Positions 3,952-53,569 of a stretch of 64,000 bases of DNA are shown here, piece by piece (position 1 is the first letter of the stretch; every line of letters starts with the position of its first letter). Below the pieces are notes generated by a model. That model was not told where the DNA came from. It searched no databases and worked only from the letters and a program-made list of their open reading frames with translations. Source of the stretch: Asterella californica (lineage: Eukaryota; Streptophyta; Marchantiopsida; Marchantiales; Aytoniaceae); the NCBI GenBank assembly GCA_036924285.1, contig JAYKYS010000007.1:2666001-2730000 (forward strand), written 5' to 3'. The position numbers were made by a program, and so were the translations under genes.

Positions 3952-6132
3952 GAGCGCATTAACTTCTTGAGACATGTCATTAGTGCAGAAGGAGTCGGTC
4001 CGGATATGCAGAAAGTGGACGCGATTGTGACTTGGGAGTCTCCGACTACAGTCAAGGGGATGCGGCGATTCTTAGGATTGGCGCAGTTCTACCGCAAGAA
4101 TGTGAAGGGGTTTTCAAAGATCGCGAAGCCGCTGACGGACTGGACGGGCAAAGACGCATAGGTAAGTTGGACCAAGGAGGTGGATGATGCATTTCAGACG
4201 ATCAAAGCTATTTTGTCAAAGGCGCCAGTATTGAAGCTGCCGGAGTTTGACAAACCATTCGAGGTGCACAAAGACGCGAGCGACTATGCGATTGACGGAG
4301 TGTTGGTGGAGGATGGAAAACCTGAAGCATACGAAAGCAAGAAGCTATCTGGGACGGAGAGTCGATGGCCGACTCACGAGAAGGAACTGTTCGCGGTGGT
4401 TCATTGCTTGAAGAAATGACGGCATTACTTGAGACTTCACAAAACCCAAGTGTATACTGATAATATTTCGCTCAAGTACTTTGAAACACAAGATCGGGTG
4501 ACGCCAAAGCAACTACGGTGGCATGATACCTTGGCGCTCATGAACGTGGAATTAATCCACAAAGCGGGAAAGGACAATGTGGTTCCTGACGCCTTGAGTC
4601 GCAAGGAGGAATATCTTTCATCGTCAACACAGATTTTGCGAGCTATGTATCCTAAGGAGTCAGACTTGGAGAGGCGAATACGTGAAGGTTACATGGGCGA
4701 TGATCAAGCGAAGAAATACTTGGAACAACTCAAGTGAGGGGTGAAGTTGCAGAACATGCAGCTAAGACATGGTTTACTCATGTTCAAGCAAAGTCGGGTT
4801 TATGTGGGACAAGGAAAACTTAGGACTAAGCTACTCAAAGAATGTCATGATGCGCCCTTATCAGGCCATAAAGGAGAGAAGTCCACTTTAGCAGTGATAG
4901 CTAAAAAGTTTTATTGGCCCCACATGAAAGACGATGTGTCTCACTTTATGAAAACATGCGTAACCTGTCAAGCGAATCGCGTTTCTTATGAGAAGAAACA
5001 AGGATTGGTTCATCCTTTGCCAATTCTAGCCAGACCTTGGGAAAGCATTAGCATGGACTTCATCACCTCTCTGCCTGACTCGAATGGATACAATGCAATT
5101 TTTGTGATAGTTGATCGGTTTAGCAAACTAGCGAAGTTTGCTCCGACCTTGGACACTGCAACAGCGTTTACGACTTCTCGGTTGTTCCTAGATACTTGGT
5201 GGCGTTCACATGGATTACCTCGGAGTATTATTTCAGATAGAGACTCTAAGTTAACAAGTGCCTTTTGGAAACACTTGTTCCAAAAATTGGGGACTAAGTT
5301 ACAATTTAGTACCGCCTTTCATCCGAAAACAGATGGGCAAACGGAACGAGTTAACTCGGTTCTGAATCAATACTTGAGGAATTATGTGAGTGCGGACCAA
5401 AGTGATTGGGCGGAGTGGCTCAGTCTTGCGGAGTATTGCTACAATTTCACGAAGCATTCGGCAACCGGTGAATCGCCCTTCTTACTGACTTACGGATGTG
5501 AGCCAGAAGGGCCTCTTGACTTGACTCTTGCAGGGAGTTCTACATCGGCACGACCAAGAACACGGCAAACATCAGCTGAAGAGTTGGTGGCGGCAATGCA
5601 GCGGCGCGAGGAGCAAGTTAAGAAGAACCTCGAGAAGGCGCAACAACGATACACGAAGCAGGTAAACAAGCATCAGCGGCAAGTGAAGTTTCAAGTGGGC
5701 GAAGAAATATGGTTAAGTGCAAAAAACTTCACACTTCCGAAGGAAATATCGGCAAAGTTTTCATCGAAGTTCGCGGGACCTTTTGTCATTGTCAAGAATC
5801 CGCATGAAGATGTCTATACATTAGACCTTCCTCGCGAGTGGCAGTTGCATCCGACTTTCCATGTTTCTTTATTAAAGAAATACTTCAAGGATGATTTGCG
5901 GCCGGAGCGCAAACAAGTACTCAGGCCTCAACTTGATGTCGTGCAAGGCGAAGCAGAATATGAGGTGGAGTCCATTTTGTGATCTTGGCGCAAATCAAAC
6001 CGGATGGAGTACTTGGTCAAATGGCGTGGTTATCATTTGAAGGAAGCAACTTGGGTGCCAGAGGAAGATCTCGCACATGCGAGCGAAGTATTGAACCTCT
6101 TCAAGCAGAGACAAGGACAACAAGGGGGTTAG
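3952..6132 (+). pseudogene. Ty3 chromovirus pol (RT end, RNase H, integrase, chromodomain)
   Basis: One reading phase throughout. It starts mid-RT (ERINFLRHVISAEGV, then the connection region). RNase H follows at ~4180-4600 (VHKDAS, HEKELFAVV, YTDN). The integrase zinc domain with CVTCQ lies near 4850-4980, and the integrase core at ~5030-5500 has its three acidic residues in SMDF, ISDRD and TDGQTERVN. A GPF-type C-terminal domain precedes a chromodomain (YLVKWRGYHLKEATW, ~5950-6130), and the frame closes with TAG at 6130. Four in-frame stops interrupt it: TAG at 4159 and TGA at 4417, 4735 and 5980. The upstream half of pol and gag are missing because another element inserted at 3951. Chromodomain presence puts it in the chromovirus branch of Ty3. 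Confidence 0.9.
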
Positions 6133-18649: not shown

Positions 18650-19744
18650 GGGAAGGTGAGAGAGAGAGAGAGAACGCAGCGGAGAACGTTTCGAAGCAAA
18701 GCGGAAATTTGAGTGTCAGGCCCTAGCGGTACGGAGAAAGACAAGAAGCAGAGGAAGAAGAAGAGGAAGAAAAAGCAAAAGAGAACAAGAGAGAGGGTTG
18801 AAAATCAAGGGTACATACAAGTGCATTGATCCCTCTTTTCTTCGTGTTTGTGAGTCTGCGTGAGCCGAGGAGCGAGTTTCAAGCTTCCCTCCTCTTCTGT
18901 CCTCCCCCTCCATTTTCATTGTCCTTCCGTCTCGTCTCGTCTCGTCTGTCACCTCCCTATTGACCGACGACGACGTCGACCCGCATTCTGCTGCCCTGCC
19001 CTGCCCTGCCCCGTCCTTCCGTCCCTTCCTCTCTCCCTCCCTCCGTCACTTCTTCTCCTCTGGTCGTCGGCCTCCTCCAGCGAAGTAGATCATGGAACTG
19101 TCGCTAGAATTGGTCCATTGATCAAATCATTGACAGCATTGTCGAGGTTTAGTGTGCTTGATAGCGAGACAACTCTCTCTCCCTCTCTCTCTCTGGGTGT
19201 CTGTCCCGGAAACCGGATGCGTTTCTCGCTGTTCTTACGGTAGTACTGCCTTTGAGCAGGAGAAAGGAAGGGAAAGGAGGAAGTGGGAGCCAGGCTTTGC
19301 GCTGAAGATAGGAAGGGCGACGCCCGTATCGGTGTGGATGTTGTTGTAGGCGTTCGCTAAGTTTCGCGCGTCGTGGTGTTTCCAGTACGGGTGCGCGCTC
19401 CTCTTTACTTTTGTGATGTAATGCTTCCCTTGCATGTGTGCGATTGCGTTTCTTCTGTTGGCGCCGGAACCATCTTTGGGCGGTATATGTGACGGTTTCG
19501 TACGAAGGGAGCTGATGATCAGGTTCTTGCGCTTGTGTGGCGAAAAGCTTAACGGACGGGATGGATTATCCCTTGTCATTGAATCCCCAGCTCTAATCTT
19601 TGAACGAGGCTAATGATTCACCATCAACGATGTTGTTTGTTTGAATTTGGCAGTGGCAGATCGTCCGTAAAAGCAATGCGTGAAGATCTTGGAGGAGCTG
19701 GGGATTCCTTGCCTTGATTGGCTGTTAATCTTGGTTTATCTACT
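18650..19744 (+). promoter_or_regulatory. promoter and pyrimidine-rich leader of MOR1
   Basis: From about 18650 the base composition shifts from AT-rich to GA/CT-rich: a GAGAGAGA run near 18660, TCTCG repeats near 18930, CTGCC repeats near 18983 and CTCTCTCC runs near 19175. Such tracts are common at plant promoters and 5' leaders. TTTGTTTGAATTTGGCAG (about 19636-19653) looks like a 3' splice site, so an intron in the untranslated leader is possible; I could not fix its donor. No clear TATA box was found. Frames on both strands here overlap each other and are not supported. Confidence 0.55.
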
Positions 19745-22700
19745 ATGTCTGAAGATGAAAAACTACTCAAGGAATGTAAGAAGCTGTCATGGGAGGACAG
19801 GTTGGCACACAAGAATTGGAAGGTTAGAGTGGACGCCAATACCGACATCGCTGCGCTTTGCGAGGGGATCAGCGATCCGAAGGATCCTAAGCTAAAAGAC
19901 TTTGGTCCGCTATTTAAGAAGGCGGTTGCTGACGCAAATGCGCCGGCGCAAGAGAAGGCGCTTGACGCCTTGATTTCTTATCTGAGAGTAGTCGATGCAG
20001 ATTTTGGCAGGTACGGGAAGGAGATATGTGACTCCGTTGTAGTTAAATGCCTTACTGGTCGGTCGAAGACCATTGAGAAGGCACAGATGGTGCTTCTTCT
20101 GTGGGTGGAGCTGGAGGCGACAGAGGCCTTCCTTGACTCGATGGAGAAAGCGGTAAAAAACAAGGTAGCTAAGGCCGTCGTGCCTGCTATCGATGTGATG
20201 TATCAAGCCGTCAGTCAATTTGGGACGAAGGTCGTCCCTCCGAAGAGAATTTTGAAAATGCTCCCTGAGCTTTTCGATCATCAGGACCAGAATGTGAGGG
20301 CATCTGCCAAAGGACTGACAATTGAGCTGTGCCGCTGGATTAGTAAGGATACTGTCAAATCCATACTTTTTGAGAAGATGCGAGAAACCATGAAGAAGGA
20401 GCTTGAAGCCGAGGTGGATATGGTCACGGGACTTGCTAAGCCTGTGCGGAAGATCAGATCAGAGCAACGAAAGGAGATTGAAGAAGAGGCAGAAGTGGTG
20501 GTGGCTGATCCGGCGTCGGTGGATGATACTTTAGTCATCGGCAATCAGGAGACTGATGATTACGAGTTCATGGACCCTGTGGACGTGTTGGGACCTCTAG
20601 GGAAGACTACGTTTTGGGAAGGTGTGAAAGCAACCAAATGGTCGGAAAGGAGGGATGCTGTTGCTGAACTCACCAAACTAGCATCTGCCAGAAGACTGGC
20701 CGTGGGCGACTATGTGGAAGTGTCTCGAATCTTGAAGAAACTTATAACAGATGTAAACCTGGCTGTAGCAGTGGAGGCAGTTCAAGCAGCCGGCAACCTA
20801 GCTAAGGGTCTACGCAAGGATTACAGTGGGGGCTCGCGGCTTCTGCTACCTCTTCTATTGGAGAGGTTCAAGGAGAAGAAGGCAGCCATGGTTGATGCAG
20901 TCATGGAAACTGTGAAAGCCATGCACAAGAGTGGTTGTTTCGGGCTTGTTGATGTAATCGAGGAGGTGAAAGTTGCTACCAAGAACAAGGTGCCATCAGT
21001 TAGATGCTCATGTCTGCAGTGGGTGACTTACTGCATTGAAACAAACAACAAAGCTACTGTTATGAAGGTGTATAAGGAGTACGTCCCAATCCTGCAGGAG
21101 TGTCTCACTGATGGTACCGCGGACGTTAGAAACGCCGCATTTGAGGGGATCATTGCCCTGGTGAAGCTAATTGGAATGAAGCCCCTTGAGAAGTCGTTGG
21201 AGAAGCTGGATGAGGTTAGGAAGAAGAAACTCACCGACTTGATGAGCACTGAACAACCGAGTAGCGTACCAGGTGCCGCTCCGCCGAAACAGCCTTCTGG
21301 TGGACTTCATTCAGGTGAGTCGACGCCTATGGTAGGTGGATCTGCCAAAGACCTTTTGTCAAATAAGAGGCCGGGTCAACCATCGCTGAAGAAGCCCCCA
21401 GCAAAGGAGAACCCAAGCACGACAAAGAAGGCTAACGGCGGGACCAGCTCTGGAGCAGCTAAAGGTCCTGGTCGTGTAGACAAAGCAGACGAGTTGGAAG
21501 GTGGGGATGTATCACCAGAGGATTTAGAATCCCGGATTGAGGGACAATTTGGAGGGGATATTGTAGCAAACCTCAAAAGCAGTAAGTGGCAGGAAAGGGT
21601 TGAAGGACTAAATACCTTGCAGAAGAAGGTGGAAGAGTTGACGGAGCTGGATTCTTTGACAGAGACGCTAGTTCGGTTTCTGTGTGTGCTGCCTGGCTGG
21701 GGCGAGAAGATTTTCCAGGTTATGCAGAGGAACATAGACCTCGTTAGCTTCTTAGCGGAGAAATCTAACAAATTCTCGAAGAGATGTGTTGCGCTTTGCC
21801 TTGTTCCAGTGGCAGAAAAGATGGTTGATATCAAATGTCGCCTACAAGCAACAAGGTGCCTTACTGCTTTCTGTGAAGCGGTTGAGCCTACATTCGTTGT
21901 CAACAGGCTTTTAGCATTCTGGAAAGATCATAAGAATCCAAAGGTGTTGCAAGATAGCATTCCTTGGTTGCTGACAAGCATGGAGGACTTTGGAGTTGGC
22001 CTTTTCCCGGTTAAGGAGTTGATAGCTTTCTGCAAGGATATGCTGAACCATCTGACAGCTCCCGGCCCCAAGGGTGCTGTAGTGAAGTTGGTGGGCGCGC
22101 TGCATAAGTGGTGTGGGCCAGATATTAAAAACTACTTCTCCGATCTTAAGAATGCGCAGCTACAGCAGAGTGTGATGGCAGAATTTGAGAAGAATCCTTA
22201 CACAGGTGAAGAGATTCCTCCCAAAAAGGCGACAAGGGCAGTTACGAGTGTAGCTGGCGGCGGCGGAGCAGAGAGTCTCCCAAGGGAGGACATCAGTGGG
22301 AAGGTTACTGCGGCGATACTGAAAAACTTCACTAGTGCCGACTGGAAGGTGCGTCAAGAAGCAATCGAAGCGGTCAACACTATCCTGCAGGAGGCAAATA
22401 TGCGGATTCAGGCGAATGGAGCAGGTGAACTCATAGGAGCCTTGAAGGGTCGCTTGGGTGACTCCAACAAGAATCTTGTGATCATGACTTTGGCAACACT
22501 TGGGAAGGTTGCTCAGGCAATGGGAGCAGGGTTTGAAAAGAGTTTCAAAGTTATTCATACAGATGTACTGAAATGTCTTGGTGATAACAAAAAGATGATG
22601 AGGGAGGCTGCAGTGAAGACCCTGGACGCGTGGCTGGTCGTACTGCAGATGAGTAAAATGCTGTCTTCCTTGACTCCAGCTCTACTGGATACGAAGCTTT

Positions 22701-25700
22701 GTGCCGATGGACGGAAGGATATGTTTGACTGGTTTGCCAAACATGTGGCAGGAGCAGACGATACGAAGGAAGTGGTCACGCTCATCAAGCCCGTGGTAAC
22801 GGGTTTACAGGACAAGAGTGCAGAAGTCAGGAAGGCTGCGGAAGGTCTTCTCATCGAGGTTGTGAAAGCTTGTGGGCCCGAAATGGCCGATCGGGCCTCC
22901 AGAAGTCTTCAGGGTCCTTCTTTGGCGTTACTGCAATCCCTGTTGGAGAAACATGGTCTGAAAGCTGGAGGGGGCCATGCAGAGGTTATAGTTGAAGAAG
23001 CTCCTAAAGGGGGTGCTTCAAGGAGTTTGCCTCAAAAGCCTGCTGGGGGCGCCCAGGGTGGTGGCAGGCGTGTTCCACTAGGGAGAGGGGGAAAGGATAC
23101 CAAAGCGGACGCTGCTGCTGATGCTGCACAGCAAGGCCAGGCTCTTTTCAATCTTAAAGAGTGTAACAAGGAGGAAAGAGAAAAGTTGCATTCACGCAGG
23201 CCCAAGTTTGATGATCAGAAAGGGGAGCAGATTCAGGATGTTGAGGGAGACCTTGTGAAGTATTTCCGGGAAGATCTCCATCGAAGGCTTTTGAGTCCTG
23301 ACTTCAAGAAGCAGGTGGAAGGTGTCGACATTCTGCACAAAGCCATTCCAACCCATCTCAGGGATATGATGGAGGTTCTGGATGTGGTTCTACGGTGGAT
23401 AGTTGTTCGTGTTTATGAAGGAAACACGACATGTCTGTTGAAGGGTTTGGACTTTCTCCAAGACTTGGCGTTGGCACTTAAAGCGGAGGGTTACTCTATG
23501 ACGGACTGCGAAGCCAGTTACATTTTTCCGTGTCTCGTTGAGAAGTCTGGACACAATAGTGAGAAAGTGCGTGAGAAGTTTCGGGAATTGTTGAGGCTCC
23601 TGTGCTGTTTGTATCCATGTTCAAGAATCTTCGGTTTTCTCCTAGATGGTTTGCGATCAAAGAATAATCGCACGAAGATTGAGTGTGTGGAGCAGCTCGG
23701 ATATCTGATTGAACGGTATGGGATGGAGGTGGGGGGATCAGGGAAAGGCTTGCAATTGGTCGTTGCCTTAACAACCGAGCGGGATGGTGATCTTCGGAAA
23801 GCAAGCCTGAATACGTTGGCAGTCGCCTATCAACATCTAGGTGAGGACATTTGGAAATATCTTGGTAGAGTATCCGATGTACAACGGAGTCTATTGGACG
23901 AGAAGTTCAAGTGGAAAGCTAGGGAGATGGAGAAGAAAAAAGAAGGAAAGCCGGGCGAAGGGCGAGGTGCAGTGCGGCGATCACCGAGGGAGAATGGAAT
24001 TGACGATGCAGAGCAGATGGTTGAGACCAACCATCAAGTTATGTCAAGTATGGTGTCGAACAACTCCAATTCTTTGGAGTCAAATTTCCGGGGGACAGCT
24101 CACATGCAGCCTGTTGGGCCGATTGACTGGAAAGACGCCATTTATGTCATAGAGAACAGTACCGTCTCGGAACAGGTTGTCGAGGGTATGAAACTCATAT
24201 GTTATGAGTTAGAACAAGCTGTTGGCGATGCAGATGGCATACTGATGGAAGAACTAGTCAGCACTGCGGATCGGCTTGTGTGCAGTTTGTCTGCAAGGGT
24301 AGCGTCTACCTTCAAAGCTGGGCTCTCGGGTTCATCGTCTAGGGCTTGTAAATATGTTCTAAATACTCTCATGCAAACATTCCAAATCAAAAGGCTTGCT
24401 TACGAGATCAAGGAAGAAAGTCTGCATTCGCTTTTCACGGAATTGCTGCTCTGGCTGCTGGATGATCGGGTACCTTTGTTGGATGATGGTAGCCAGCTTC
24501 TGAAAGCGCTGAATGTGCTTGTGCTGAAGATTCTTGAGAATGCCAATCGTACATCCGCCTTTGTGGTACTTATTGATCTCCTTCAGCCGAGCGCGGGGAA
24601 AGGAGACAGACAAATGCTGTCATCCCACAGGTTTTCGGACCTGGTTGTGAAGTGCCTCATCAAGCTCACTAAGGTTCTTGGCTCAACCATAAATGAAGTA
24701 GACTTGGATCGGCTTCTTCAAAGCATTCACGACTACTTTCAGCAACTGGGACTGGAAGAGATCCGGAAACGAGCAGGTGCTGACGACAAGCCACTGCGAA
24801 TGGTGAAGACAGTGCTACATGAACTAGTGAAGCTGAGGGGAACTTCAGTCAAAGGCCATCTGTCTATGGTTCCAATTGATTCTGAACCTCAGCCGATTAT
24901 TCTTGCTTACATTGACCTGAACTTGCAGACGTTAGCCGCAGCGAGGATGCATATGCTGACGCCCACAGGAACCGGACAGCAAGGTCATTGGTTGGACAAT
25001 GGTGGGAACGGACCTTCATCGAACACAACTAGTTCTGCCGAGACACAGCTAAAACAAGAGCTTGCCGCAATTTTCAAAAAGATTGGGGACAAGCAAACTT
25101 GCACTGTTGGGTTGTATGAGTTGTATAGAATAACGCAATTGTATCCACATGTTGACATATTCTCACAGCTGCAGAATGCCAGCATGGCGTTTCGGACCTA
25201 TATACGAGATGGGTTGGCCCAGATGGAGAAGAGTGCGGCATCTGGAAGGACACCTGCCAGTATGTCGGTTGTCTCCCCTCCCCCTTTATCACCATCAAAC
25301 ATGGGGTATCCCTCCAAAGGAGCTCCAAACCACAGTTCCCCACATTTGCCTAGTCAACACACCACCTATGGAGAGGATGCGGAAGTCGTGAGTGCGCGTC
25401 TTACTTCTTACACAGTCGATTCTTCCTCAGTCCGACAACCGGTTCAACAGCGGCACGTGGAGACCTCGTCTTATGAGACCTCAGGGGATGCGCATGGCGA
25501 GTCAAATGTGCAGAGTACTGTGGTCGGAGGAACCTTGAACGCTATCAGAGAAAGGATGAAGAACATTCAAGCAGCTGCCGCTGGGAGTACAGGAAGTGGG
25601 AATTACAGCATTCCTTCAGTGGCATCAGCCGAACCCACGTCTCAACATCTTGCACCTCCGGCAGGTGTCGAGCATCGTCAAAGGGAACCAATACCGGATA

Positions 25701-25774
25701 AAGCTCTGTCTGGCCTACAGGCAAGGATGGAAAGGCTAAAGAATGGTGTTGTAGAGCCTGCGGTATTAGTGTGA
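19745..25774 (+). CDS. MOR1: MOR1/GEM1, XMAP215-family microtubule polymerase
   Basis: 2009 residues in one uninterrupted frame. The first ATG gives MSEDEKLLKECKKLSWEDR, the conserved start of plant MOR1; upstream codons in frame start only with TTG. TOG domains are at about residues 1-230, 280-500, 590-820, 850-1075 and 1135-1400. Four have the tubulin-contacting Trp in the first loop (NWKVR, KWSERRD, KWQERVE, DWKVRQE) and the fifth has DFKKQVE. Lys/Pro/Ser-rich linkers (about 500-590 and 1075-1130) suit lattice binding. A helical C-terminal region (about 1458-1834) and a tail with AIRERMKNI and LQARMERLKNG complete the family layout. The protein binds tubulin dimers and speeds microtubule growth at plus ends in cortical arrays, spindle and phragmoplast. 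Length matches the plant family (about 1980 aa in Arabidopsis). Lack of coding introns is unusual, since the angiosperm genes have many. Confidence 0.97.
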   Translation: MSEDEKLLKECKKLSWEDRLAHKNWKVRVDANTDIAALCEGISDPKDPKLKDFGPLFKKAVADANAPAQEKALDALISYLRVVDADFGRYGKEICDSVVVKCLTGRSKTIEKAQMVLLLWVELEATEAFLDSMEKAVKNKVAKAVVPAIDVMYQAVSQFGTKVVPPKRILKMLPELFDHQDQNVRASAKGLTIELCRWISKDTVKSILFEKMRETMKKELEAEVDMVTGLAKPVRKIRSEQRKEIEEEAEVVVADPASVDDTLVIGNQETDDYEFMDPVDVLGPLGKTTFWEGVKATKWSERRDAVAELTKLASARRLAVGDYVEVSRILKKLITDVNLAVAVEAVQAAGNLAKGLRKDYSGGSRLLLPLLLERFKEKKAAMVDAVMETVKAMHKSGCFGLVDVIEEVKVATKNKVPSVRCSCLQWVTYCIETNNKATVMKVYKEYVPILQECLTDGTADVRNAAFEGIIALVKLIGMKPLEKSLEKLDEVRKKKLTDLMSTEQPSSVPGAAPPKQPSGGLHSGESTPMVGGSAKDLLSNKRPGQPSLKKPPAKENPSTTKKANGGTSSGAAKGPGRVDKADELEGGDVSPEDLESRIEGQFGGDIVANLKSSKWQERVEGLNTLQKKVEELTELDSLTETLVRFLCVLPGWGEKIFQVMQRNIDLVSFLAEKSNKFSKRCVALCLVPVAEKMVDIKCRLQATRCLTAFCEAVEPTFVVNRLLAFWKDHKNPKVLQDSIPWLLTSMEDFGVGLFPVKELIAFCKDMLNHLTAPGPKGAVVKLVGALHKWCGPDIKNYFSDLKNAQLQQSVMAEFEKNPYTGEEIPPKKATRAVTSVAGGGGAESLPREDISGKVTAAILKNFTSADWKVRQEAIEAVNTILQEANMRIQANGAGELIGALKGRLGDSNKNLVIMTLATLGKVAQAMGAGFEKSFKVIHTDVLKCLGDNKKMMREAAVKTLDAWLVVLQMSKMLSSLTPALLDTKLCADGRKDMFDWFAKHVAGADDTKEVVTLIKPVVTGLQDKSAEVRKAAEGLLIEVVKACGPEMADRASRSLQGPSLALLQSLLEKHGLKAGGGHAEVIVEEAPKGGASRSLPQKPAGGAQGGGRRVPLGRGGKDTKADAAADAAQQGQALFNLKECNKEEREKLHSRRPKFDDQKGEQIQDVEGDLVKYFREDLHRRLLSPDFKKQVEGVDILHKAIPTHLRDMMEVLDVVLRWIVVRVYEGNTTCLLKGLDFLQDLALALKAEGYSMTDCEASYIFPCLVEKSGHNSEKVREKFRELLRLLCCLYPCSRIFGFLLDGLRSKNNRTKIECVEQLGYLIERYGMEVGGSGKGLQLVVALTTERDGDLRKASLNTLAVAYQHLGEDIWKYLGRVSDVQRSLLDEKFKWKAREMEKKKEGKPGEGRGAVRRSPRENGIDDAEQMVETNHQVMSSMVSNNSNSLESNFRGTAHMQPVGPIDWKDAIYVIENSTVSEQVVEGMKLICYELEQAVGDADGILMEELVSTADRLVCSLSARVASTFKAGLSGSSSRACKYVLNTLMQTFQIKRLAYEIKEESLHSLFTELLLWLLDDRVPLLDDGSQLLKALNVLVLKILENANRTSAFVVLIDLLQPSAGKGDRQMLSSHRFSDLVVKCLIKLTKVLGSTINEVDLDRLLQSIHDYFQQLGLEEIRKRAGADDKPLRMVKTVLHELVKLRGTSVKGHLSMVPIDSEPQPIILAYIDLNLQTLAAARMHMLTPTGTGQQGHWLDNGGNGPSSNTTSSAETQLKQELAAIFKKIGDKQTCTVGLYELYRITQLYPHVDIFSQLQNASMAFRTYIRDGLAQMEKSAASGRTPASMSVVSPPPLSPSNMGYPSKGAPNHSSPHLPSQHTTYGEDAEVVSARLTSYTVDSSSVRQPVQQRHVETSSYETSGDAHGESNVQSTVVGGTLNAIRERMKNIQAAAAGSTGSGNYSIPSVASAEPTSQHLAPPAGVEHRQREPIPDKALSGLQARMERLKNGVVEPAVLV

Positions 25775-45129: not shown

Positions 45130-46616
45130 TCGTCGTTTTTTTAGTTATGGATATTCTCTCTCATGAGATCGAGAGTGATTCGAGACACATTACGTCCGAT
45201 GTGCAATCTGTTATTTATCTCGCAAAGGATAAAATTTCATGTGAGAAAGATGCACAAGAGCTATGATAGGACCACATGAGATACCCAAGTTAGCCGAGAG
45301 CGGAGGTCTACACCTGTAGTCATTATGACACCGTTAGTCTTTGTTCTTGGAGTTCCTCCTGAGTCATGTGAATGATTGAGAGTCCACTCTGACACTATTC
45401 TGAAATTGTTCGAGACGAGTTTTCTTTGTCCGCGTTTTTTCTATTGGTTACCTCATGCTCTTCATGATGAGGTGAGACATGCATTCTGTCTATCGCTCGA
45501 CATGTTGGCATGGAACACCAAGGACGAGACGGCTTGTTATTTCCTCGTTGGTGCCTCTGTTATACTCGAGGTGACAGAGAGAGACATCGAGAGGTGGCGG
45601 TCCGTCTTTGGAGATTCCGTGCAAGTGATTGAGCGGTCTTACAGGAGGAATCAGTACGTGCAGTACGAGATAGGAGTGAGTCTGTCTCTACACGTGATGT
45701 CTCATCTTCCGTCTGCATTCTATGTTGTAAGATGTTAGATCAGGTTGGAGAGTATAGTAGAGCTGCTAGAGCATTGCATCTTTTGTCAATGACATGTCCT
45801 ACTGAAGAGACGATCGCTTCGTTCCGTCTTTCACTCCCCACCGCATGTTCTCTCACCACTTGAGGTTCAAGACTATCAGCTTGAGGAGTCATTATGTCTC
45901 GATAGATCTTTGTTTGTCCAAGCTTTATGTACGACTCAATGTCTATCTTCTGGAGGTCTGTCTAGATTATCTACGAGCACCTACGGGATTGTTTTCGGAC
46001 AGACGACCCCTCTAATGATTTCACGGAGCTTTTTCAAGTAGTGGCAGTAGTAGCTCAGGGACATATCTCTCATTCTATAGCTCAGGTACTGGAGGCAGCT
46101 AGACTGTTGGTCATGACGAAAGATGATGGTGAGATTCGACCGATAGCCATCAGCGAGATTCTTCTACGATTTATTAGTCGTGCCATTGTTCTTTAGCTTC
46201 GAGATACATTTCAGGATCACCTTTGTCCACATCAGTTTGGAGTTGCGACGTCTAGAGGTTGTGAGTATGTGTCTTTCGATATTAAGGCTTTCTTGGACAT
46301 CCATCCCGATTGGATCGTCTTACAAGTAGACGTGAAAAATACTTTTAATAGCATTTCTTGCGCTTTCATCTTTAGCGAGCTCATGGATGACGGTGGATCT
46401 CTACCGAGTCTCGTTCTCTTCGTGCATTCGTTCTATGGTTCTTCCACCCCTCTTATTACCAACACGGTCCTTTGATAGAGAGAGCTACAGTCATCAGCTC
46501 CGCTGCAGGTACTCGTCAGGGAGACCTTTTGGGTGGACTCTCTTTGTCTTAGCTCACTATAGAGCTCTCTTGACCACCGTCTTGGTTGCTCCAGGTTGTG
46601 TTTTTCCATCTCTAGC
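45130..46616 (+). pseudogene. reverse-transcriptase element, segment 1 of 3
   Basis: Best-preserved copy of the family. A leader domain at 45376-45738 (KDETACYFLVGASVILEVTE, IERWRSVFG) is followed by DGEIRPIAISEILLRFISRA (about 46120-46190). The RT fingers/palm follow (HPDWIVLQVDVKNTFNS, 46269-46475). The GTRQGD-type block near 46515 is in another frame. Stops and frameshifts occur, for example TAG near 46193. The sequence stops at TCTAGC (46616), where a chromovirus has inserted, and resumes at 52784 with the DDTHI catalytic block. It is a non-LTR-type RT by its motifs. No endonuclease domain was identified. Confidence 0.8.
46612..46616. other. left target-site duplication CTAGC
   Basis: CTAGC directly before the LTR, repeated exactly at 52784-52788 after the other LTR. 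A 5-bp duplication is the Ty3 integrase signature. Confidence 0.95.
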
Positions 46617-47123
46617 TGTAAGATGAGGCTCTAGAGTGAACTCGAAACTCGAATGCCCGTGGTGGTGCATTCGCAGCCTTTATATAGTGAGAGGAATAGT
46701 ACATGATCAGCTTCCGGCCAATGCTCATCTCTCACGCGGATCGCTGATGTGGCTTACATGCAGCCTTAGATCTAGAACAACATCTAGAGGTTCAGAATGA
46801 GCCACGTAGAAGGCTCGCTGGAAAGTTCTAGAAGCTTCTTTCTAGAAACTTCCTTCTGGAAGCTTCCCGGCTGGAAAGTTCTAGAAGCTTCTTTCTAGAA
46901 ACTTCCTTCTGGAAACTTCCCGGCTGGAAAGTTCTAGAAGCTTTATTCTAGAAACTTCCTTCTGGAAGTTTCCCGGCGGACTTTTGGCGCACTCGCCTAT
47001 TGGTAGAAGTACTATTTGCTGCATGTATTCTTCGGCCAACTTAGCCGTAACTAATTCTTATATCAAGGACTTCTACCAAACCAATTTCTCCTCTAGTTGA
47101 TAAGTAGGACTCTACTTATTACA
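46617..47123 (-). repeat. 3' LTR with heat-shock-element array
   Basis: 507 bp; on the minus strand it runs TGTAATAAGTAG ... CATCTTACA. Three 53-bp tandem units (from 46821, 46874 and 46927) are packed with alternating GAA and TTC triplets. A TATATAA box (46680-46686, minus) follows about 135 bp downstream on the same strand, then only about 35 bp to the presumed start and LTR end. Confidence 0.95.
46821..46973 (-). promoter_or_regulatory. triplicated heat-shock elements, 3' LTR
   Basis: Unit 1 contains GAAAGTTCTAGAAGCTTC (46821-46838), four alternating 5-bp GAA/TTC modules in perfect register. It is followed by TTCTAGAAACTTC and TTCTGGAAGCTTC, about ten modules per unit. Unit 2 repeats this from 46874. 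Unit 3 (from 46927) loses one module (TTT for TTC). Perfect nGAAnnTTCn arrays are the binding site of heat-shock transcription factor trimers. Confidence 0.75.
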
Positions 47124-47125
47124 AA

Positions 47126-47138
47126 CCTCCCCCCTTTT
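47126..47138 (-). promoter_or_regulatory. polypurine tract
   Basis: AAAAGGGGGGAGG on the minus strand, two bases before the 3' LTR. It overlaps the TAA stop of pol (47137-47139). Confidence 0.85.
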
Positions 47139-49083
47139 AAGAAGCAACGTCCTCGTTGCTCAACTGCTGTTCGAAAGCTTGCACTATGAGTGGGGCGTGT
47201 GCAAGATTAGTTGCAGGTTCCCATGTTGCTTCATGTAATGGATAGCCTTTCCATTTGACCAAATAATCTATCCGTTGATGACGAGTCCCACGAACACGTT
47301 TCTTTAAGATGCATTCCACTTCAAACTCTTCCTCGCCATCGATAATTTGAGGCAGTGGTCGCGACTCTTGCGAATTGCCAAATTGAGGAGGTCGTGGTGT
47401 ATATCGCCATAATAAAGACACATGAAAAACCGGATGAATCTTCATATGGGATGGAAGTTCGAGTTGATATGCCACTGCTCCAATTCTCCGGACAACAGAG
47501 AAAGGCCCGATGAAGCGAGGGTTGAATTTACGACTGCCGATCAGAGTAAGGTTGGTTGTGGATAACCAAACTTGATCACCAATCGTGAACTCTTCATGCC
47601 GACGGTGTCCATCGGCATATTGCTTTTGTCGGTTCTGAGCAACTTGTAGTTTCACCTTAGCTTTGTCCACTCCTTGTTGAATTCGTGCAACGAATTCATT
47701 AACAGCATCCACTTTGGTGTTGACTGACGACGTCGTGCTGAATCGTGTCAAACTTGCTGGTGTGAGAGGATGTTCGCCGTACATGAGATAAAAAGGTGTT
47801 TCACGAGTAGATGCATTGAGGGAGTTGTTGTAGGCAAATTCTACCAAAGGGAGTAAAGTGTCCCACTTCGCTTGCTCCTCCAGAGTAAAGGCTCGTAGCA
47901 TGTCTTCAATGGTGCGATTGGCTCTTTCGGTTTGTCCATCGGTCTGTGGGTGATAAGCCGTAGACATGGCAAGTTTGGTCTTGAACAGACCAAATAGGGT
48001 TCTCCAAAACATGCTCGTAAACTGAGGACCTCTATCTGTTATAAGCACCCGTGATAGACCGTGCTGAGCAAAAATGGTGTTCAAATATATCTGAGCAAGT
48101 TGCGGTGCTGAGACGTCTTTCGTGGTCGGTCGAAGATGGATCATCTTGCTAAGCTTATCGACGAAGACGACGATGGAGTCAAAACCTGAGCTCGTCATGG
48201 GAAGTTCACACACTAAGTCCATACTAACATGTTCCCAACGTTTGGAAGGGATCGGGAGGGGTTGAAGGAGACCGGAGGGTGCTTGATTTGTAGCCTTATT
48301 TTGTTGACACATTGCACAACTCCGAGTGTATACTGCAACATCCTCTGTCATCTTGGGCCAATAGAACACTCGTTGGACTGCTTCCAACGTCTTTTCTGCC
48401 CCCATGTGTCCTGCAATGGCTGAATCGTGACATTCAGTTAGTATGGTGGTACGTAGTTCTGGATCATCTGGGATCCATAACTTCCCTTCATGGAATACCA
48501 AACCATGGTTGCGGGTGATGGTGCTTGAAGGTTTTGCTGCGATAGTCTGTGCATCCGATTTTGTGCCCTCGATCAATTTTGTCCAGAAGTCAGAATTCAC
48601 CTTGACTTCAGAGACTATGTTATGCACCATAGGCATGCGGGTTAATGCATCAGCAATTTGCTTCTTGCCCTCAACGTACGTGATGGTCATGTTGAATCGC
48701 TGCCTCCATTCTGCCCAACGGATTTGTCTCTTTGAGAGATCCTTCTGCGTCTCCAAATAGACTAAAGGTTTGTGGTCTGTCTCGACCACAAAAGCCTTCT
48801 CCCCTAGATAGTGCTTCCAATGCTTAGTAGCGAGAACTATCGCCAATTCTTCTCTCTCGGTGGTGTGATAGTTCTGTTCTGCTGGTAACAACTTCCGAGA
48901 GAAGTATGCAATTGGATGCCAACCATCCTTCCATTCTTGCTGCAACACCGCCCCTACTGCCGTGCCTGATGCGTCCGTTGCTAACTTGATAGGTTTTTTT
49001 GGGTCGTACCACTTGAGGATCGGAGCATGTAGTAGCGCGGTTTTCAATGCTTGAAAACCTACTTCTTGCGCTGTTCCCCACAT
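47137..49083 (-). CDS. chromovirus pol, RNase H-integrase-chromodomain part
   Basis: 648 codons in the same phase as the RT block upstream, from which it is separated only by a TGA (49084-49086). RNase H occupies about residues 1-160 (ATDASGTAVG, TEREELAIV, ETDHKPLVY, DALTR). The integrase zinc domain is at ~210-260 (ECHDSAIAGH, CAMCQQNK). The DDE core is at ~275-400, with its acidic residues in SMDLV, ITDRGPQF and TDGQTERANR. A C-terminal domain (FIGPFSVVRRIG) and a chromodomain (about 585-640; FEVECILKKR, YLVKWKGYPLHEATWEP) complete it. The chromodomain of this family directs integration toward particular chromatin. All catalytic residues are present. It is normally made as part of one Gag-Pol polyprotein; the ATG at its start is probably not used. 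Confidence 0.93.
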   Translation of the reverse strand: MWGTAQEVGFQALKTALLHAPILKWYDPKKPIKLATDASGTAVGAVLQQEWKDGWHPIAYFSRKLLPAEQNYHTTEREELAIVLATKHWKHYLGEKAFVVETDHKPLVYLETQKDLSKRQIRWAEWRQRFNMTITYVEGKKQIADALTRMPMVHNIVSEVKVNSDFWTKLIEGTKSDAQTIAAKPSSTITRNHGLVFHEGKLWIPDDPELRTTILTECHDSAIAGHMGAEKTLEAVQRVFYWPKMTEDVAVYTRSCAMCQQNKATNQAPSGLLQPLPIPSKRWEHVSMDLVCELPMTSSGFDSIVVFVDKLSKMIHLRPTTKDVSAPQLAQIYLNTIFAQHGLSRVLITDRGPQFTSMFWRTLFGLFKTKLAMSTAYHPQTDGQTERANRTIEDMLRAFTLEEQAKWDTLLPLVEFAYNNSLNASTRETPFYLMYGEHPLTPASLTRFSTTSSVNTKVDAVNEFVARIQQGVDKAKVKLQVAQNRQKQYADGHRRHEEFTIGDQVWLSTTNLTLIGSRKFNPRFIGPFSVVRRIGAVAYQLELPSHMKIHPVFHVSLLWRYTPRPPQFGNSQESRPLPQIIDGEEEFEVECILKKRVRGTRHQRIDYLVKWKGYPLHEATWEPATNLAHAPLIVQAFEQQLSNEDVAS

Positions 49084-50160
49084 TCATTTCTTGCCTTTGC
49101 CTAACAGGGCAGTTAGTGGTTGTGCAAGCTTGGCAAAATGCTTAACAAATCTACGATAAAATCCTGTCAATCCCAAGAAGCTCTTAAGTTGGGTCTGATC
49201 TTCTGGAGCCTTCCATTGTTGGATGACAGCTATTTTATCGGCCATTACTTGTATGCCTTCTGCACTCACTCTGTGTCCTAAGTAGTCCACCTCCGTCTTG
49301 CCAAATTCACATTTTGAAATTTTGGCGTACAATTTATTTTGACGGAGTACTTGGAGAACCTCTCTCAAATGGTGCACATGGTCATCCATAGTTTTGCTAT
49401 AGACTAAGATGTCGTCAAGAAATACAACGACTGATCTGTCTAAGTACGGCCGGAATATGTCATTCATCAGGCCCATGAAGGTGGCCGGTGCATTTGTGAG
49501 ACCAAATGGCATTACTAAGTATTCGAAGTGACCATACCTTGTTCGAAAGGCAGTCTTTTCCACATCTTCATCAGCGATTCGAATCTGGTTGTACCCGCTC
49601 CGTAAGTCTAGCTTCGTGAAGTACTTTGCTCCTTCGAGTTGGTCGAACAAGTCATCCATCCGAGGTAGTGGATACTTATTCTTCACCGTTTGTTGATTGA
49701 GTGCTCGGTAATCGATGCACATCCGTAGGCTGTTATCCTTTTTCTTAACAAAAAGGACTGGAGCTCCATATGGTGACACGCTGGGTTGGATGAACCCTTT
49801 TTGTAACATCTCCTCGATTTGCGCCTTGCACTCCTCCAATTCATGTGGCGCTAGTCTGTATGGGGCCTTACAAGGAGGGGTGCTCCCTGGAATCACCTCG
49901 ATTTTGTGGTCAATCCTTCGTTTTGGTGGTAACCCTGAAGGAAGATCATCGGGAAAGACATCCCCATATTCTGCTATCACTCCTGTCAAGCTTTCTGGTA
50001 TCTGTCCGTCGAGTCGTGCACTCGGGACTTCTCTTATTAAACCCAAAAAACAGACATCGCTGTTACGTATAGCACTTGTACCTATTACATACAAAGGCAA
50101 GCTCTGTCTTCGAGATCTCACTCTATCTCCGAAGATTTTCCACTGTTTGGTTTTCACCAC
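49084..50160 (-). CDS. chromovirus pol, reverse transcriptase part
   Basis: 358 codons. RT motifs in order: [17 protein letters not shown] before the fingers, [50 protein letters not shown] with the first catalytic Asp, [11 protein letters not shown], and [11 protein letters not shown] with the catalytic DD pair. The thumb/connection region ([33 protein letters not shown]) follows. It lies in phase with the protease segment upstream and the RNase H segment downstream, interrupted by TAG (50170-50172) and TGA (49084-49086). Both stops sit where relatives usually have Trp, consistent with single G-to-A changes. It converts element RNA to cDNA in virus-like particles. Confidence 0.93.
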
Positions 50161-50169
50161 TTTTCTTTG

Positions 50170-50572
50170 CTAATCCACTTCAGGATTATACTGCTCCATC
50201 CACGGCATACCCAATATGACATCATAACGGGCTAATGTGATCACTCGCCACTCAATATCTTCACGATATTCACCTAAAGTAAGTTCTATCTTTCGAGGTA
50301 GAGATTCAATCTTCTCAGTCTGTCCATTGGGCAGTTCCACCTCTTCACTCTCATCACTTTCTAACTCCATTCCCAATTTCATAGCAGTCGATCGAGACAA
50401 AAAGTTCTCTGTTGCACCAGGATCGATTAGTACTCTCACCTGGGTCCCTTCCAAGACTCCATCCGTGACAATCAATTGTGCATTGTTTTTTGTCAATCTC
50501 CTTCTCCTTCCCTCGCCTTTCTTCTCCCTCCTTGCACCAGTAAGGCCGCGAGGTGCATTTACTGGTGTTCTT
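50170..50572 (-). CDS. chromovirus pol start and protease
   Basis: The pol phase is open from the frameshift site (first pol codon 50572-50574) to the TAG at 50170-50172. A basic linker (RREKKGEGRRRRLTK) precedes a retropepsin fold with active-site motif VLIDPGATENFLS and the later YDVILGMPWM motif. DPGA in place of DSG/DTG is common in plant Ty3 proteases. There is no ATG at the beginning of this frame, so expression by frameshift from gag is the simplest route. The protease cleaves the Gag and Gag-Pol polyproteins. Confidence 0.88.
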
Positions 50573-50580
50573 CGTTTCCC
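50535..50580 (-). promoter_or_regulatory. programmed -1 ribosomal frameshift signal, gag-pol
   Basis: On the minus strand the heptamer GGGAAAC (50574-50580) lies in gag phase as G_GGA_AAC. After 6 nt (GAAGAA) comes a 9-bp stem, CACCAGTAA (50559-50567) paired with TTACTGGTG (50535-50543), around a 15-nt loop. The gag stop TAA is inside the stem. Slipping back one base after AAC enters exactly the pol phase, which is open. Loop bases CCTCG could also pair with CGAGG at 50511-50515 to form a pseudoknot. Confidence 0.85.
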
Positions 50581-51689
50581 AGTCTTGCCTCGATTTCCTC
50601 ATCTCCTTCCGTCCCATTCAGATGATTCAAAGGTCGACGATATGAAGGTCTTGGATCTCTAGGAAAACGACTTCGACAATTTGCAGCTATGTGGCCGAAT
50701 CGCCCACAGCTGTAACATCGACGTTGCTCGAGTTGAGGTGTGGCATTCCTGACACCTTCTCCTCTAGGAGCTCCTTGACGTCTTTCTTCTGGCCGCCCTC
50801 GACGATCCCCACCTTGAAATTGTCGTGGCTGATAGCGGATGTTGCCTAGCTCCATGGGTGTCGGACCGTTTGCATACGGGATTTCGGATCTATTCTGATG
50901 ATTTGGTGGAATCATCACTTCTCCTCCTAACGCTCCAGCAATTCTCTGAGCGCAAGCGATGGCCTCAAAAACCGTGAGTGGGTTTTGCACCATTACTTCT
51001 TGTCGAATTCTTTCCTTCAACCCCCTCTTGAAATTATCAAGAGCCTCCGCCGGACTCATATCAGTGATTGCAACTTGCAAGTCGAGGAAGGCTTCTACAT
51101 ACTCTTGAAGACTTCCCTTCTGTTTCAATTCCCACATCCTCGTTCGAGCCATTTGCACCGAGTCCACAGACTGGAAATTCTTCAACAACCCTTCTTGCAT
51201 TGCAGTCCATGTGACTGTCCTCCCTTCCGCCAACACCGATCTCTCCCATGCATCATACCACGTGAGAGCTTTATCAGTCAAGTAGCCACACGCAAACACT
51301 CCCGCTACGTGGTCTGTGATTTGCGTACTGAAAAGTCGTAAATATCGATTCATCCGAGAAATCCAATTCTCGACTACTCCCATAAGTCGTTGGCCTTTGT
51401 ACGATTCAATGTTACATGTCTTCTTCATCCGTAGTAGCAGGGCACCTTCCTCATCGACTGGAGCTCTAACGATTTGTGCCACGGGTTCTCTTGGTGCAGA
51501 TTGCTCTCCCACCACCGGTACTCCTTGAGACGATCCTCCTCTTGCAACGTCTGTCATACTCTGACCCTCGAGGTTCAGCATTTTGTTCTGTAATGCTTCA
51601 ACCGTCATCTTCATCTCTCGAAATTCGGTCAGCATGCCTTGCATCAGTTCCTGCATCACCAACTCTGGATTTGGAGGTTGTTGCTCCAT
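50559..51689 (-). CDS. chromovirus gag
   Basis: 376 aa from an ATG at 51689 to TAA at 50559. An N-terminal helical segment is followed by a retrotransposon gag capsid domain (about residues 110-260; ENWISRMNRYLRLFSTQ, LTWYDAWER, LKQKGSLQEYVEAF, FKRGLKERIRQEV). A basic Arg/Gly-rich stretch and a zinc knuckle CYSCGRFGHIAANC (about residues 323-336) lie near the C terminus. Gag forms the particle and packages RNA. It is intact in this copy. Its last codons overlap the frameshift signal, so most ribosomes should end at TAA and a minority continue into pol. Confidence 0.93.
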   Translation of the reverse strand: MEQQPPNPELVMQELMQGMLTEFREMKMTVEALQNKMLNLEGQSMTDVARGGSSQGVPVVGEQSAPREPVAQIVRAPVDEEGALLLRMKKTCNIESYKGQRLMGVVENWISRMNRYLRLFSTQITDHVAGVFACGYLTDKALTWYDAWERSVLAEGRTVTWTAMQEGLLKNFQSVDSVQMARTRMWELKQKGSLQEYVEAFLDLQVAITDMSPAEALDNFKRGLKERIRQEVMVQNPLTVFEAIACAQRIAGALGGEVMIPPNHQNRSEIPYANGPTPMELGNIRYQPRQFQGGDRRGRPEERRQGAPRGEGVRNATPQLEQRRCYSCGRFGHIAANCRSRFPRDPRPSYRRPLNHLNGTEGDEEIEARLGNEEHQ

Positions 51690-51734
51690 GATCGCTCTCT
51701 CTCTCTCTTACGACAAGTAAGTTTCAAGCTTCTT

Positions 51735-51938
51735 CTAGTACAGAGTTATGACGGCCACTCGGAAACGTTCGTATACTACAGGTACTACAAAAGGGACAGG
51801 AGAATCAATTATCTCGCGGTAGAAATCCTCACCAAAATTTCTAATCACAAACTCTCTATGTAACGATTTCGGTCTGCAGACATAGCGGATCTCCACCCAC
51901 GTGTTGAAGGGAACAGGAGCGGGTAGGTTTAGATCCAT
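51735..51938 (-). CDS. leader small ORF 2 of the chromovirus
   Basis: 67 codons from an ATG at 51938 (the open phase extends upstream only through TTG). It contains NLPAPVPFNTWVEIRYV and NFGEDFYREIIDSPVPFVVP. It resembles the neighbouring leader ORF 1 (shared PAP-LP/PF and FGEDF---I/V-(D/N)SPVP motifs), indicating an internal duplication. It lies between primer site and gag. No known domain is recognised. It could be translated, act as an upstream ORF, or be the remnant of a longer protein. Confidence 0.4.
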   Translation of the reverse strand: MDLNLPAPVPFNTWVEIRYVCRPKSLHREFVIRNFGEDFYREIIDSPVPFVVPVVYERFRVAVITLY

Positions 51939-51943
51939 GCTCA

Positions 51944-52159
51944 CTAAATCAAGATGTAGACGGTCAAATCCCAACTAGCTGCATATGTCACTACTAGAAG
52001 AATCACCGGGACTGGCGAATTCATCACTTGACCCATGAAATCCTCACCGAAATGATAAACAAGATACACTCGAAAATGCTCTCGACGTATATACATAAGC
52101 TTGATATGGAAAGGATTCAAGAATGGTAATTCTGGAGCTGGAAATCTACCCCCATCCAT
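51944..52159 (-). CDS. leader small ORF 1 of the chromovirus
   Basis: 71 codons from an ATG at 52159. Contains MDGGRFPAPELPFLNPFHIK, YIRREHFRVYLVYHFGEDF and MNSPVPVILLVV. Its similarity to leader ORF 2 extends over most of both peptides, although they are in different phases, separated by a short gap. Function unknown. Being first in the transcript it would affect translation of gag unless bypassed. Confidence 0.4.
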   Translation of the reverse strand: MDGGRFPAPELPFLNPFHIKLMYIRREHFRVYLVYHFGEDFMGQVMNSPVPVILLVVTYAASWDLTVYILI

Positions 52160-52260
52160 CACATAGCTCTCTTGATCCTTTCAGCGCACTCAGAGTTTCA
52201 ATTGCTAGGTACCTCGATCAAAGGTCCTTCTAAGAGGGGTAATCCGCTCTCTTAGAGTTT

Positions 52261-52275
52261 CCTGCTCTGATACCA
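52261..52275 (-). promoter_or_regulatory. primer binding site, initiator tRNA-Met
   Basis: TGGTATCAGAGCAGG on the minus strand, one base after the 5' LTR. TGGTATCAGAGC is the standard complement of the plant initiator tRNA-Met 3' end. Confidence 0.95.
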
Positions 52276-52276
52276 T

Positions 52277-52783
52277 TGTAAGATGAGGCTCTAGAGTGAA
52301 CTCGAAACTCGAATGCCCGTGGTGGTGCATTCGTAGCCTTTATATAGTGAGAGGAATAGTACATGATCAGCTTCCGGCCAATGCTCATCTCTCACGCGGA
52401 TCGCTGATGTGGCTTACATGCAGCCTTAGATCTAGAACAACATCTAGAGGTTCAGAATGAGCCACGTAGAAGGCTCGCTGGAAAGTTCTAGAAGCTTCTT
52501 TCTAGAAACTTCCTTCTGGAAGCTTCCCGGCTGGAAAGTTCTAGAAGCTTCTTTCTAGAAACTTCCTTCTGGAAACTTCCCGGCTGGAAAGTTCTAGAAG
52601 CTTTATTCTAGAAACTTCCTTCTGGAAGTTTCCCGGCGGACTTTTGGCGCACTCGCCTATTGGTAGAAGTACTATTTGCTGCATGTATTCTTCGGCCAAC
52701 TTAGCCGTAACTAATTCTTATATCAAGGACTTCTACCAAACCAATTTCTCCTCTAGTTGATAAGTAGGACTCTACTTATTACA
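52277..52783 (-). repeat. 5' LTR with heat-shock-element array
   Basis: 507 bp, identical by eye to the 3' LTR except one C/T difference. The heat-shock arrays begin at 52481, 52534 and 52587, and the TATATAA box is at 52340-52346 (minus). This is the copy that would drive the element's RNA. Confidence 0.95.
52481..52633 (-). promoter_or_regulatory. triplicated heat-shock elements, 5' LTR
   Basis: Same three 53-bp units as in the 3' LTR. The motif GAAAGTTCTAGAAGCTTC is at 52481-52498 and 52534-52551, with a variant at 52587-52604. The nearest array lies about 135 bp upstream of the TATA box, a heat-inducible promoter layout. Confidence 0.75.
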
Positions 52784-53569
52784 CTAGCTGATGATACTCA
52801 TATCGTAGGTCATGCGGACCAAGTCTCTGTTGTCTTTGATCACCTCATCTCTCAATTGGCCTTGGTAGGGTTGAGAGTGAAGGTGTCAAAGTGATAGACT
52901 TGGTCTTCCATAGGTATACCGTCGGACCTTCATCTCTCGGAGGGATGTGTTACACCTAGAAATAGTTTACACATCTCTGGAGTATCGACGGATACAGAGG
53001 ACTTCGTCTCGGTGTTCTTAGATGTTGTCATGACGGAGGACGTTTTACATATCGAGGATCTCTCTATGTTAGAGGACCCACATATTATCTTTGATATCCT
53101 TTCCTCTTCCATTGCATGTCGTCTTGGTTACTTATTCCGCATAGTACCTCCATCTCCTATCTTCATCGCGCGTCTTAGATAGTTTGATAGCAGGATCATG
53201 GAGGTTTTTGATGACATCATAAGATCGGGGATCTTTGACTACTTCGCAAGACCTCTAGCACGTGGACATACATCTTTGCCGATATCATGTGACGGGGTGG
53301 ACTTATTATTCATGGAGGAAATTGCTCCGGCAGTCTTTTTGGGTAGTTGGGCACTCTGAGCACCTTGTCTATCTTATCGTTTCATTGTGCGAGATAGATT
53401 TATCCTGGAGAGCTACGTGATAGAGGTGGAGGATGATTCTTACTTACTACAGTTGTGTCTCCGTGAGACAAGAGATAGTTTGACTCTTGAGGCACGTCAA
53501 GCACTCCTTCGATTCGATACCCTAGCTTTCGATGGACCTCACGTACTACAATCTTCTTTGATGGTACCG
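52784..53569 (+). pseudogene. reverse-transcriptase element, segment 2 of 3
   Basis: Starts with the second copy of CTAGC, then GATGATACTCATATCGTAGG (the DDTHIV catalytic block), continuing the palm interrupted at 46616. Then come the post-RT domain (FLDVVMTEDVLHIEDLS, SSSIACRLGYLFRIVPPSPI, PLARGHTSLPISCDGVDLL) and, near 53387-53560, a fragment ending FDTLAFDGPHV. Frameshifts and a TAG at about 53180 break it. It stops at about 53569, where the second LTR element begins. Confidence 0.8.

Follow-up and report, generated by a model that had tools for sequence, protein, structure and literature searches.

A tandem heat-shock-element array in the LTRs of a young Ty3 chromovirus of the liverwort Asterella californica

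Heat-responsive transposable elements

Among the described systems, ONSEN (ATCOPIA78) of Arabidopsis thaliana has LTRs with clusters of nGAAn motifs (4P), which are bound by HSFA2, and it is induced by heat; its 4P element has been inferred to stem from the duplication of a proto-HRE (PMC3907296, PMC5059998). The 4P, that is four adjacent nGAAn, forms the strongest published class of heat-responsive elements (HREs) and is the one bound by HSFA2, and the predicted HRE strength tracked the heat induction across the copia families of Brassicaceae (PMC5059998). Clusters of HREs have also been gained in the LTRs of the Brassicaceae elements TERESTRA / Alesia.FAM.7, COPIA37 and ROMANIAT5 (PMC5059998), the last of which has been proposed to confer heat response on APUM9 (PMC10881000). 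As far as the consulted parts of these sources go, the three families are of Ty1/copia type and contain up to six nGAAn motifs, and no tandem array of 53-bp units is described in them.

Heat has been linked to Ty3 elements as well. According to a review, PHRE1 and PHRE2 of moso bamboo and certain Ty3 elements of Cryptomeria are heat-active or heat-induced members of Ty3/Gypsy (PMC9780303); however, the excerpted text of the PHRE paper itself mentions neither HSE nor HSF nor nGAAn nor chromovirus, and names a heat shock factor only in the title of a reference (PMC8656106). In Cryptococcus, the Ty3/gypsy element TCN3, listed together with TCN12, carries a pair of putative HSEs in its LTR; at 30 °C no insertion of TCN3 was obtained, and its authors, who call HSE-driven activation in fungi undescribed, propose an Hsf1-driven mobilisation at 37 °C (PMC12810828). 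TCN3 is, however, a fungal element, and the excerpted part of that paper mentions the two putative HSEs without any tandem array of units. Substantial numbers of HSEs within one transposon family are known from the Helitrons of Caenorhabditis (PMC6927752), which are animal DNA transposons and not LTR promoters. Thus, PHRE1/PHRE2, the Cryptomeria elements and TCN3 were brought into connection with heat before the Ty3 family described below. Among the best-ranked results of a search in the open-access literature, outside which most subscription papers lie, there was neither a comparable liverwort element nor an LTR with HSEs arrayed in tandem.

The array and the element that carries it

The window analysed here is the whole stretch of 64,000 nucleotides at positions 2,666,001 to 2,730,000 of contig JAYKYS010000007.1 (assembly GCA_036924285.1, forward strand). 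On its minus strand there is a structurally complete Ty3 chromovirus insertion of 6.17 kb (46617-52783), the 3' LTR of which (507 bp, 46617-47123) carries an HSE array of three 53-bp units with 29 GAA/TTC triplets (46821-46972, minus strand), while the identical array in the U3 of the 5' LTR (507 bp, 52277-52783, array at 52481-52632, minus strand) represents the promoter copy. An earlier, sequence-only reading of the window had reported such three units in both LTRs, with block sequences and coordinates that proved to be right. A full unit consists of ten GAA/TTC triplets in alternating blocks of 4+3+3, which are connected via 4-bp TTC-TTC steps; the successive steps within a unit are 5, 5, 5, 4, 5, 5, 4, 5 and 5 bp, with 10 bp between units. 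The near-saturated 5-bp register that had been claimed holds, therefore, within the blocks, and is overstated for the unit as a whole, given the 4-bp and 10-bp steps. The units of the window array differ pairwise at 1-4 positions and contain 10, 10 and 9 triplets (29 of 30), the third lacking one TTC that is retained in most of the fetched relatives. To our knowledge, no larger HSE array is known from the LTRs of another element family.

The array is real, far above chance and placed in the U3 upstream of the TATA box. The window LTR contains 20 five-bp GAA/TTC pairs, 11 three-triplet runs and 2 four-triplet runs (perfect 4P), against means of 0.56, 0.02 and 0 and maxima of 6, 2 and 0, respectively, in 2000 dinucleotide shuffles of the LTR; in the window without both arrays (63.7 kb), three three-triplet runs and no four-triplet run were found. 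On the sense strand of the LTR, the order is CCAAT (121), the array (151-303), ACGTG (317) and TATATAA (438), the latter following the array at a distance of about 135 bp on the strand of the element, at 52340-52346 in the 5' LTR and at 46680-46686 in the 3' LTR (both minus), in agreement with the placement given earlier for both LTRs.

The LTRs, which begin with TGTAAT and end with TTACA on the sense strand (TG..CA ends), are distinguished by a single one of their 507 sites (46674), and the insertion is flanked by the 5-bp target-site duplication CTAGC (46612-46616 on the left and 52784-52788 on the right, without strand). The primer binding site TGGTATCAGAGC (52264-52275, minus), which we take to be of the initiator-Met-tRNA type, adjoins the 5' LTR, and the polypurine tract AAAAGGGGGGAGG (47126-47138, minus) adjoins the 3' LTR. 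Between them, all on the minus strand, are the gag ORF of 376 aa (50559-51689; Retrotrans_gag, Ty3_capsid, zinc knuckle), a pol piece with the reverse transcriptase (RVT_1; 49087-50169) and a second pol piece (47137-49083), which comprises RNase H, integrase and, at its C-terminus, a chromodomain (at about 47167-47325). Pfam assigns the latter domain to PF00385 (E 1.4e-15), at residues 587-639 of the piece, which is 648 aa long. The domain order gag, reverse transcriptase, RNase H, integrase was read as Pfam matches on separate ORF pieces, and the integrase follows RNase H, so that the Ty1/copia Pol order, with the integrase before the reverse transcriptase, was not found in the window element. 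The Pol order, the C-terminal chromodomain of the integrase, the TG..CA LTRs, the 5-bp target-site duplication, the primer binding site and the polypurine tract are together those of a Ty3 chromovirus; with the near-identity of the LTRs, they bear out the earlier assignment to a young element of this group. The window copy is young, yet it has no uninterrupted Pol reading frame: two in-frame stops interrupt pol, one at 49084-49086, where it ends the reverse transcriptase piece, and one at 50170-50172, preceding that piece. For the integrase-chromodomain piece, the best named relatives come from two liverworts, namely Riccia sorocarpa, with 75% over 67% of the query, and Calypogeia fissa, with 60%. 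An integrase-like ORF of another Ty3-type element is present elsewhere in the window (4741-5979, plus strand).

Comparison with ONSEN

The array probably works in the way of the ONSEN HRE, in an element that is not an ONSEN. The origin of the array separate from that of ONSEN, as the sequence-only reading had it, is upheld because ONSEN is a Ty1/copia element. ONSEN has a 4P of four nGAAn and a gap HRE, against 29 triplets in the window Ty3 LTR, and the heat induction has been measured for ONSEN and is proposed for the window element. According to the consulted parts of the sources, the ONSEN promoter is also devoid of CG and CHG sites, which is held to help its escape from silencing (PMC3907296). 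The window LTR of 507 bp contains 18 CG and 19 CHG sites, unlike ONSEN, and silencing may for that reason override the activation of the element.

Proposed role as a heat-shock-factor-binding enhancer

The LTR is probably an HSF-driven promoter. In our estimation, it is likely that the array, as part of the U3 promoter, serves as an HSF-binding enhancer of a Ty3 chromovirus that was active recently, with heat driving its transcription and the formation of new copies. Class A HSF trimers of the host would bind the 4+3+3 blocks cooperatively upon heat stress, and the units would share about one face of the helix, since 53 bp is close to five turns; the bound HSFs would then drive transcription from the TATA box downstream, and new copies would arise by retrotransposition. 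That HSF trimers would fill the array on heat we infer from the match to the 4P class, the fit to the HSFA2/A3 motif, the presence of HSFs in the host and the HSF-HSE binding in Marchantia; the heat induction, the benefit of more units to the element and, by way of the midpoint root, the direction of change in unit number are inferences too.

The motif under the ChIP peaks of Arabidopsis HSFA2 and HSFA3 is TTCtaGAAnnTTCt (PMC10230730), and the TTCTAGAA-centred blocks of the array fit it. The form of that motif contained in the window array, TTCtaGAAnnTTC, occurs there five times on the plus and three times on the minus strand, and once in the rest of the window. Within the family, the form TTCTAGAAnnTTC was present in 39 of 39 younger and in 5 of 19 older measured arrays, the exact TTCtaGAAnnTTC form being missing from 14 of the 19 older ones; it is therefore a trait of the younger lineages. 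In Marchantia, MpHSFB1 has been shown to bind HSE in vitro by EMSA (PMC12445474).

Host heat shock factors, HSP promoters and neighbouring genes

The genome holds 16 matches to the HSF domain, including two loci with the canonical recognition helix FKHNNFSSFVRQLN, of which one is presumably A-like and the other B-like. At least 12 matches to the HSF DNA-binding domain, without intron interruption, are clustered at G000 C207:10.96-11.25 Mb (L143, L144, L147), where the recognition helix is divergent in the three that were read (FKHRKFSYFLRHLEYYGFQK), the canonical intron-split HSF loci elsewhere being only two. It is possible that the cluster is an amplified HSF-like family.

With respect to host promoters, GAA/TTC runs were not enriched, relative to window tiles, upstream of 20 HSP20 matches (p 0.71-0.72) or of 11 HSP70 matches (p 0.10-0.15), and no perfect four-triplet run was present among these 20 and 11 upstream regions. 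Of 20 HSP20 regions, 2 have a perfect three-triplet run, identical in sequence and in distance between the two, compared with 2 of 86 tiles; for the HSP70 regions the figures are 0 of 11, compared with 2 of 82 tiles. Many of the HSP20 matches may start at a later exon. Thus, the use of such perfect arrays by the host could not be shown.

These observations bear on the possibility that the array does bind HSFs and acts mainly as an enhancer at normal temperature, in general stress or in development, or as a target of a divergent HSF-like protein, and not as a heat switch. Plant HSFs act outside heat stress too, and both the clustered divergent HSF-domain ORFs and the absence of similar arrays from the HSP20 and HSP70 upstream regions speak for such a role. 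However, the blocks fit a motif that is bound by the heat-induced HSFA2/A3 of Arabidopsis (PMC10230730), and the recognition helix of the cluster departs from the canonical one. We consider this explanation unlikely, and a heat-driven enhancer is retained as the preferred reading of the array.

A transfer of heat responsiveness to neighbouring genes, suggested in the sequence-only reading, found no support in the window, where no gene is evidently promoted by the LTR: outside the element, ORFs of 150 aa or more come no closer than 3.1 kb, where an uncharacterised one is located, followed by a polyamine-transporter-like gene at 9.3 kb and, on the other side of the element, an XMAP215-like gene at 20.8 kb. 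The top match of the polyamine-transporter-like neighbour is at 83%, the best named one being in Calypogeia fissa (70%), followed by Brassica napus and Sphagnum among others. The XMAP215/CLASP TOG-domain ORF (window 19718-25774, plus strand) extends over 2018 aa without intron interruption, and an uninterrupted ORF of such a size is unexpected for a plant gene.

Family size and the 4P sites of the genome

In the genome searched (516.7 Mb, 773 contigs), which a plastid rbcL marks as that of a plant, the anchor from the TATA region of the LTR had 636 matches at up to 3 mismatches and its control none, while a 35-place unit pattern had 1156 matches at up to 2 mismatches, with again none for the control. 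The perfect four-triplet (4P) element occurs at 1292 genome sites versus 57 for the reversed pattern. A listing of 50 of the perfect 4P sites, which are all situated on contig C1, includes 43 that belong to this LTR family, 41 of them in LTRs fetched or matched and two (C1:12403479 and 12403518) assigned by position only; of the other seven, six are in a repeat of another element resembling reverse-transcriptase coding sequence and one is elsewhere. This second repeated 4P sequence on contig C1, with five listed places (G000 C1:1721605, 4763687, 9958757, 15818131 and 15893150; L148-L152) and a diverged copy, is a second dispersed source of 4P; it reads, by eye, as reverse-transcriptase coding sequence, and the 4P in it is probably a coincidence.

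A further copy, L036 (G000 C11:4715306-4715812), has a three-unit array and GGTTG directly on both sides, and is a probable solo LTR.

Unit number, age and instability

In order to avoid choice by the array, 60 LTRs were picked through array-free sequence (array-blind sample). Forty of them came from the 100 listed places of the TATA anchor, from which the later contigs and most places already known to resemble the window LTR closely had been removed, and 20 from the 40 listed older LTRs that match the array-free flank of a single-unit copy, with four already in the set left out. Measured were 58 of the 60, L099 and L125 being dropped; L075 was dropped from the flank-only tree, and L075 and L099 from the selection test that included the pattern-selected copies.

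The flank-to-flank length of the array is quantised at 48, 101, 154 and 207 bp, which corresponds to one to four units, with sub-steps of 14 bp and a few other lengths. The arrays of the 39 younger array-blind LTRs comprise 0.96-3.02 units, with about two or more in 31, three in 15 and about one in 5 of the 39, while 18 of the 20 older LTRs have about one unit or less and the other two 1.74 and 1.98 units. Four units were found in one element of the family. In the tree built on the flanks alone, which comprises 69 LTRs, the six copies that do not exceed one unit are on one side of a branch supported at 98/93, adjoining three two-unit copies, with two-, three- and four-unit copies mixed inside. 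The array-blind tree (58 rows) requires six changes of the one-unit label; therefore, contractions to one unit probably occur too. The trees were rooted by midpoint, without an outgroup.

Two presumed LTR pairs of about one unit or less show 6.9% divergence, while of the 13 presumed pairs in which each LTR has three units (including L068/L069, the arrays of which are 1 bp apart in length) 11 diverge by 0-0.8% and two by 1.1% and 2.0%; the youth of the three-unit pairs is partly one of choice, because many were fetched for likeness to the window LTR. A single unit is likely to be ancestral, as far as the midpoint root holds. The ancestral LTR probably had one ten-triplet unit already, from which the tandem duplication of 53 bp, together with the gain and loss of 14-bp blocks, would have raised the number to two and three, and to four in a single element. 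Growth of the array through tandem duplication, as earlier supposed, is thus in line with the family, its direction (from one through two to three units) depending on the midpoint rooting.

The array length differs by more than 1 bp in 14 of the 31 presumed LTR pairs, and in 5 of 9 among the array-blind pairs alone, as in a pair with arrays of 48 and 154 bp at 0.3% flank divergence. The presumed pairs are LTRs on the same strand, about 2.8-9.4 kb apart, with mates assigned mainly by position. Unless errors of the assembly play a part, the unit number therefore changes by tandem gain and loss, either once the element has inserted or in the course of reverse transcription. The array of L046 (G000 C1:10688500-10689800) is 168 bp long, that is three units and an extra 14-bp three-triplet block; along with arrays of 87 and 140 bp, it suggests that the 14-bp block is a second duplication unit.

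Selection on the triplets

In the selection test, the changes on inner and terminal branches were compared at triplets, linkers and flanks. Among the array-blind copies, triplet change was about 2.5-3.3 times rarer than linker change, on inner and terminal branches alike, and the inner-to-terminal ratios of triplets did not differ significantly from those of linkers or flanks (p 0.14-0.67). An apparent constraint on the first-unit triplets, which was seen with the pattern-selected copies included (p 0.0007 vs flanks, 0.019 vs linkers), was gone in the array-blind set, and is discounted because intact triplets had been the criterion for choosing the pattern-selected copies; the last-unit triplets, with these copies included, gave p 0.84 vs flanks and 0.64 vs linkers. 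Selection for HSF binding was thus not demonstrated across the array-blind copies.

The instability of the array length between LTR mates, the hypervariable linkers and the triplet change that is not significantly below that of the LTR flanks would also be expected of a palindrome-rich 53-bp repeat grown by slippage or unequal exchange, as a by-product without any regulatory role. This, however, is very improbable: neutral slippage accounts for the unit number and not for the ten oriented and spaced triplets in the older single-unit copies, the array is situated in U3 with triplet runs beyond all 2000 shuffles, and none of the 58 measured array-blind LTRs lacks a three-triplet element, with a four-triplet element present in 52 of them. 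That the array serves replication or nucleic-acid structure, through RNA or DNA hairpins, and not transcription is extremely unlikely, since the self-complementarity of the units, although about 70%, is imperfect and inherent in alternating GAA/TTC, and the unit number varies freely.

Implications for the family and its host

A more far-reaching scenario would be that an escalation within this one chromovirus family has taken the array from about 10 triplets to 40, and that the family holds most of the strongest HSEs, as its share of the listed 4P sites would indicate, so that its several hundred LTRs would act both as a heat-coordinated trigger of retrotransposition and as a sink or redistributor of a small HSF pool, with the divergent HSF-like cluster as a counter-move, host- or element-driven; we regard this scenario as quite improbable. 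If the element described here is heat-induced, which is the preferred reading, HSF-driven retrotransposition would be extended to a plant Ty3 chromovirus, in a liverwort. The natural series of LTRs with one to four units in one genome, including the presumed mates with unequal units, would make the relation between the array strength and transposon success testable. Finally, with hundreds of strong HSEs spread by one family, it can be asked whether transposons redistribute HSF binding genome-wide.
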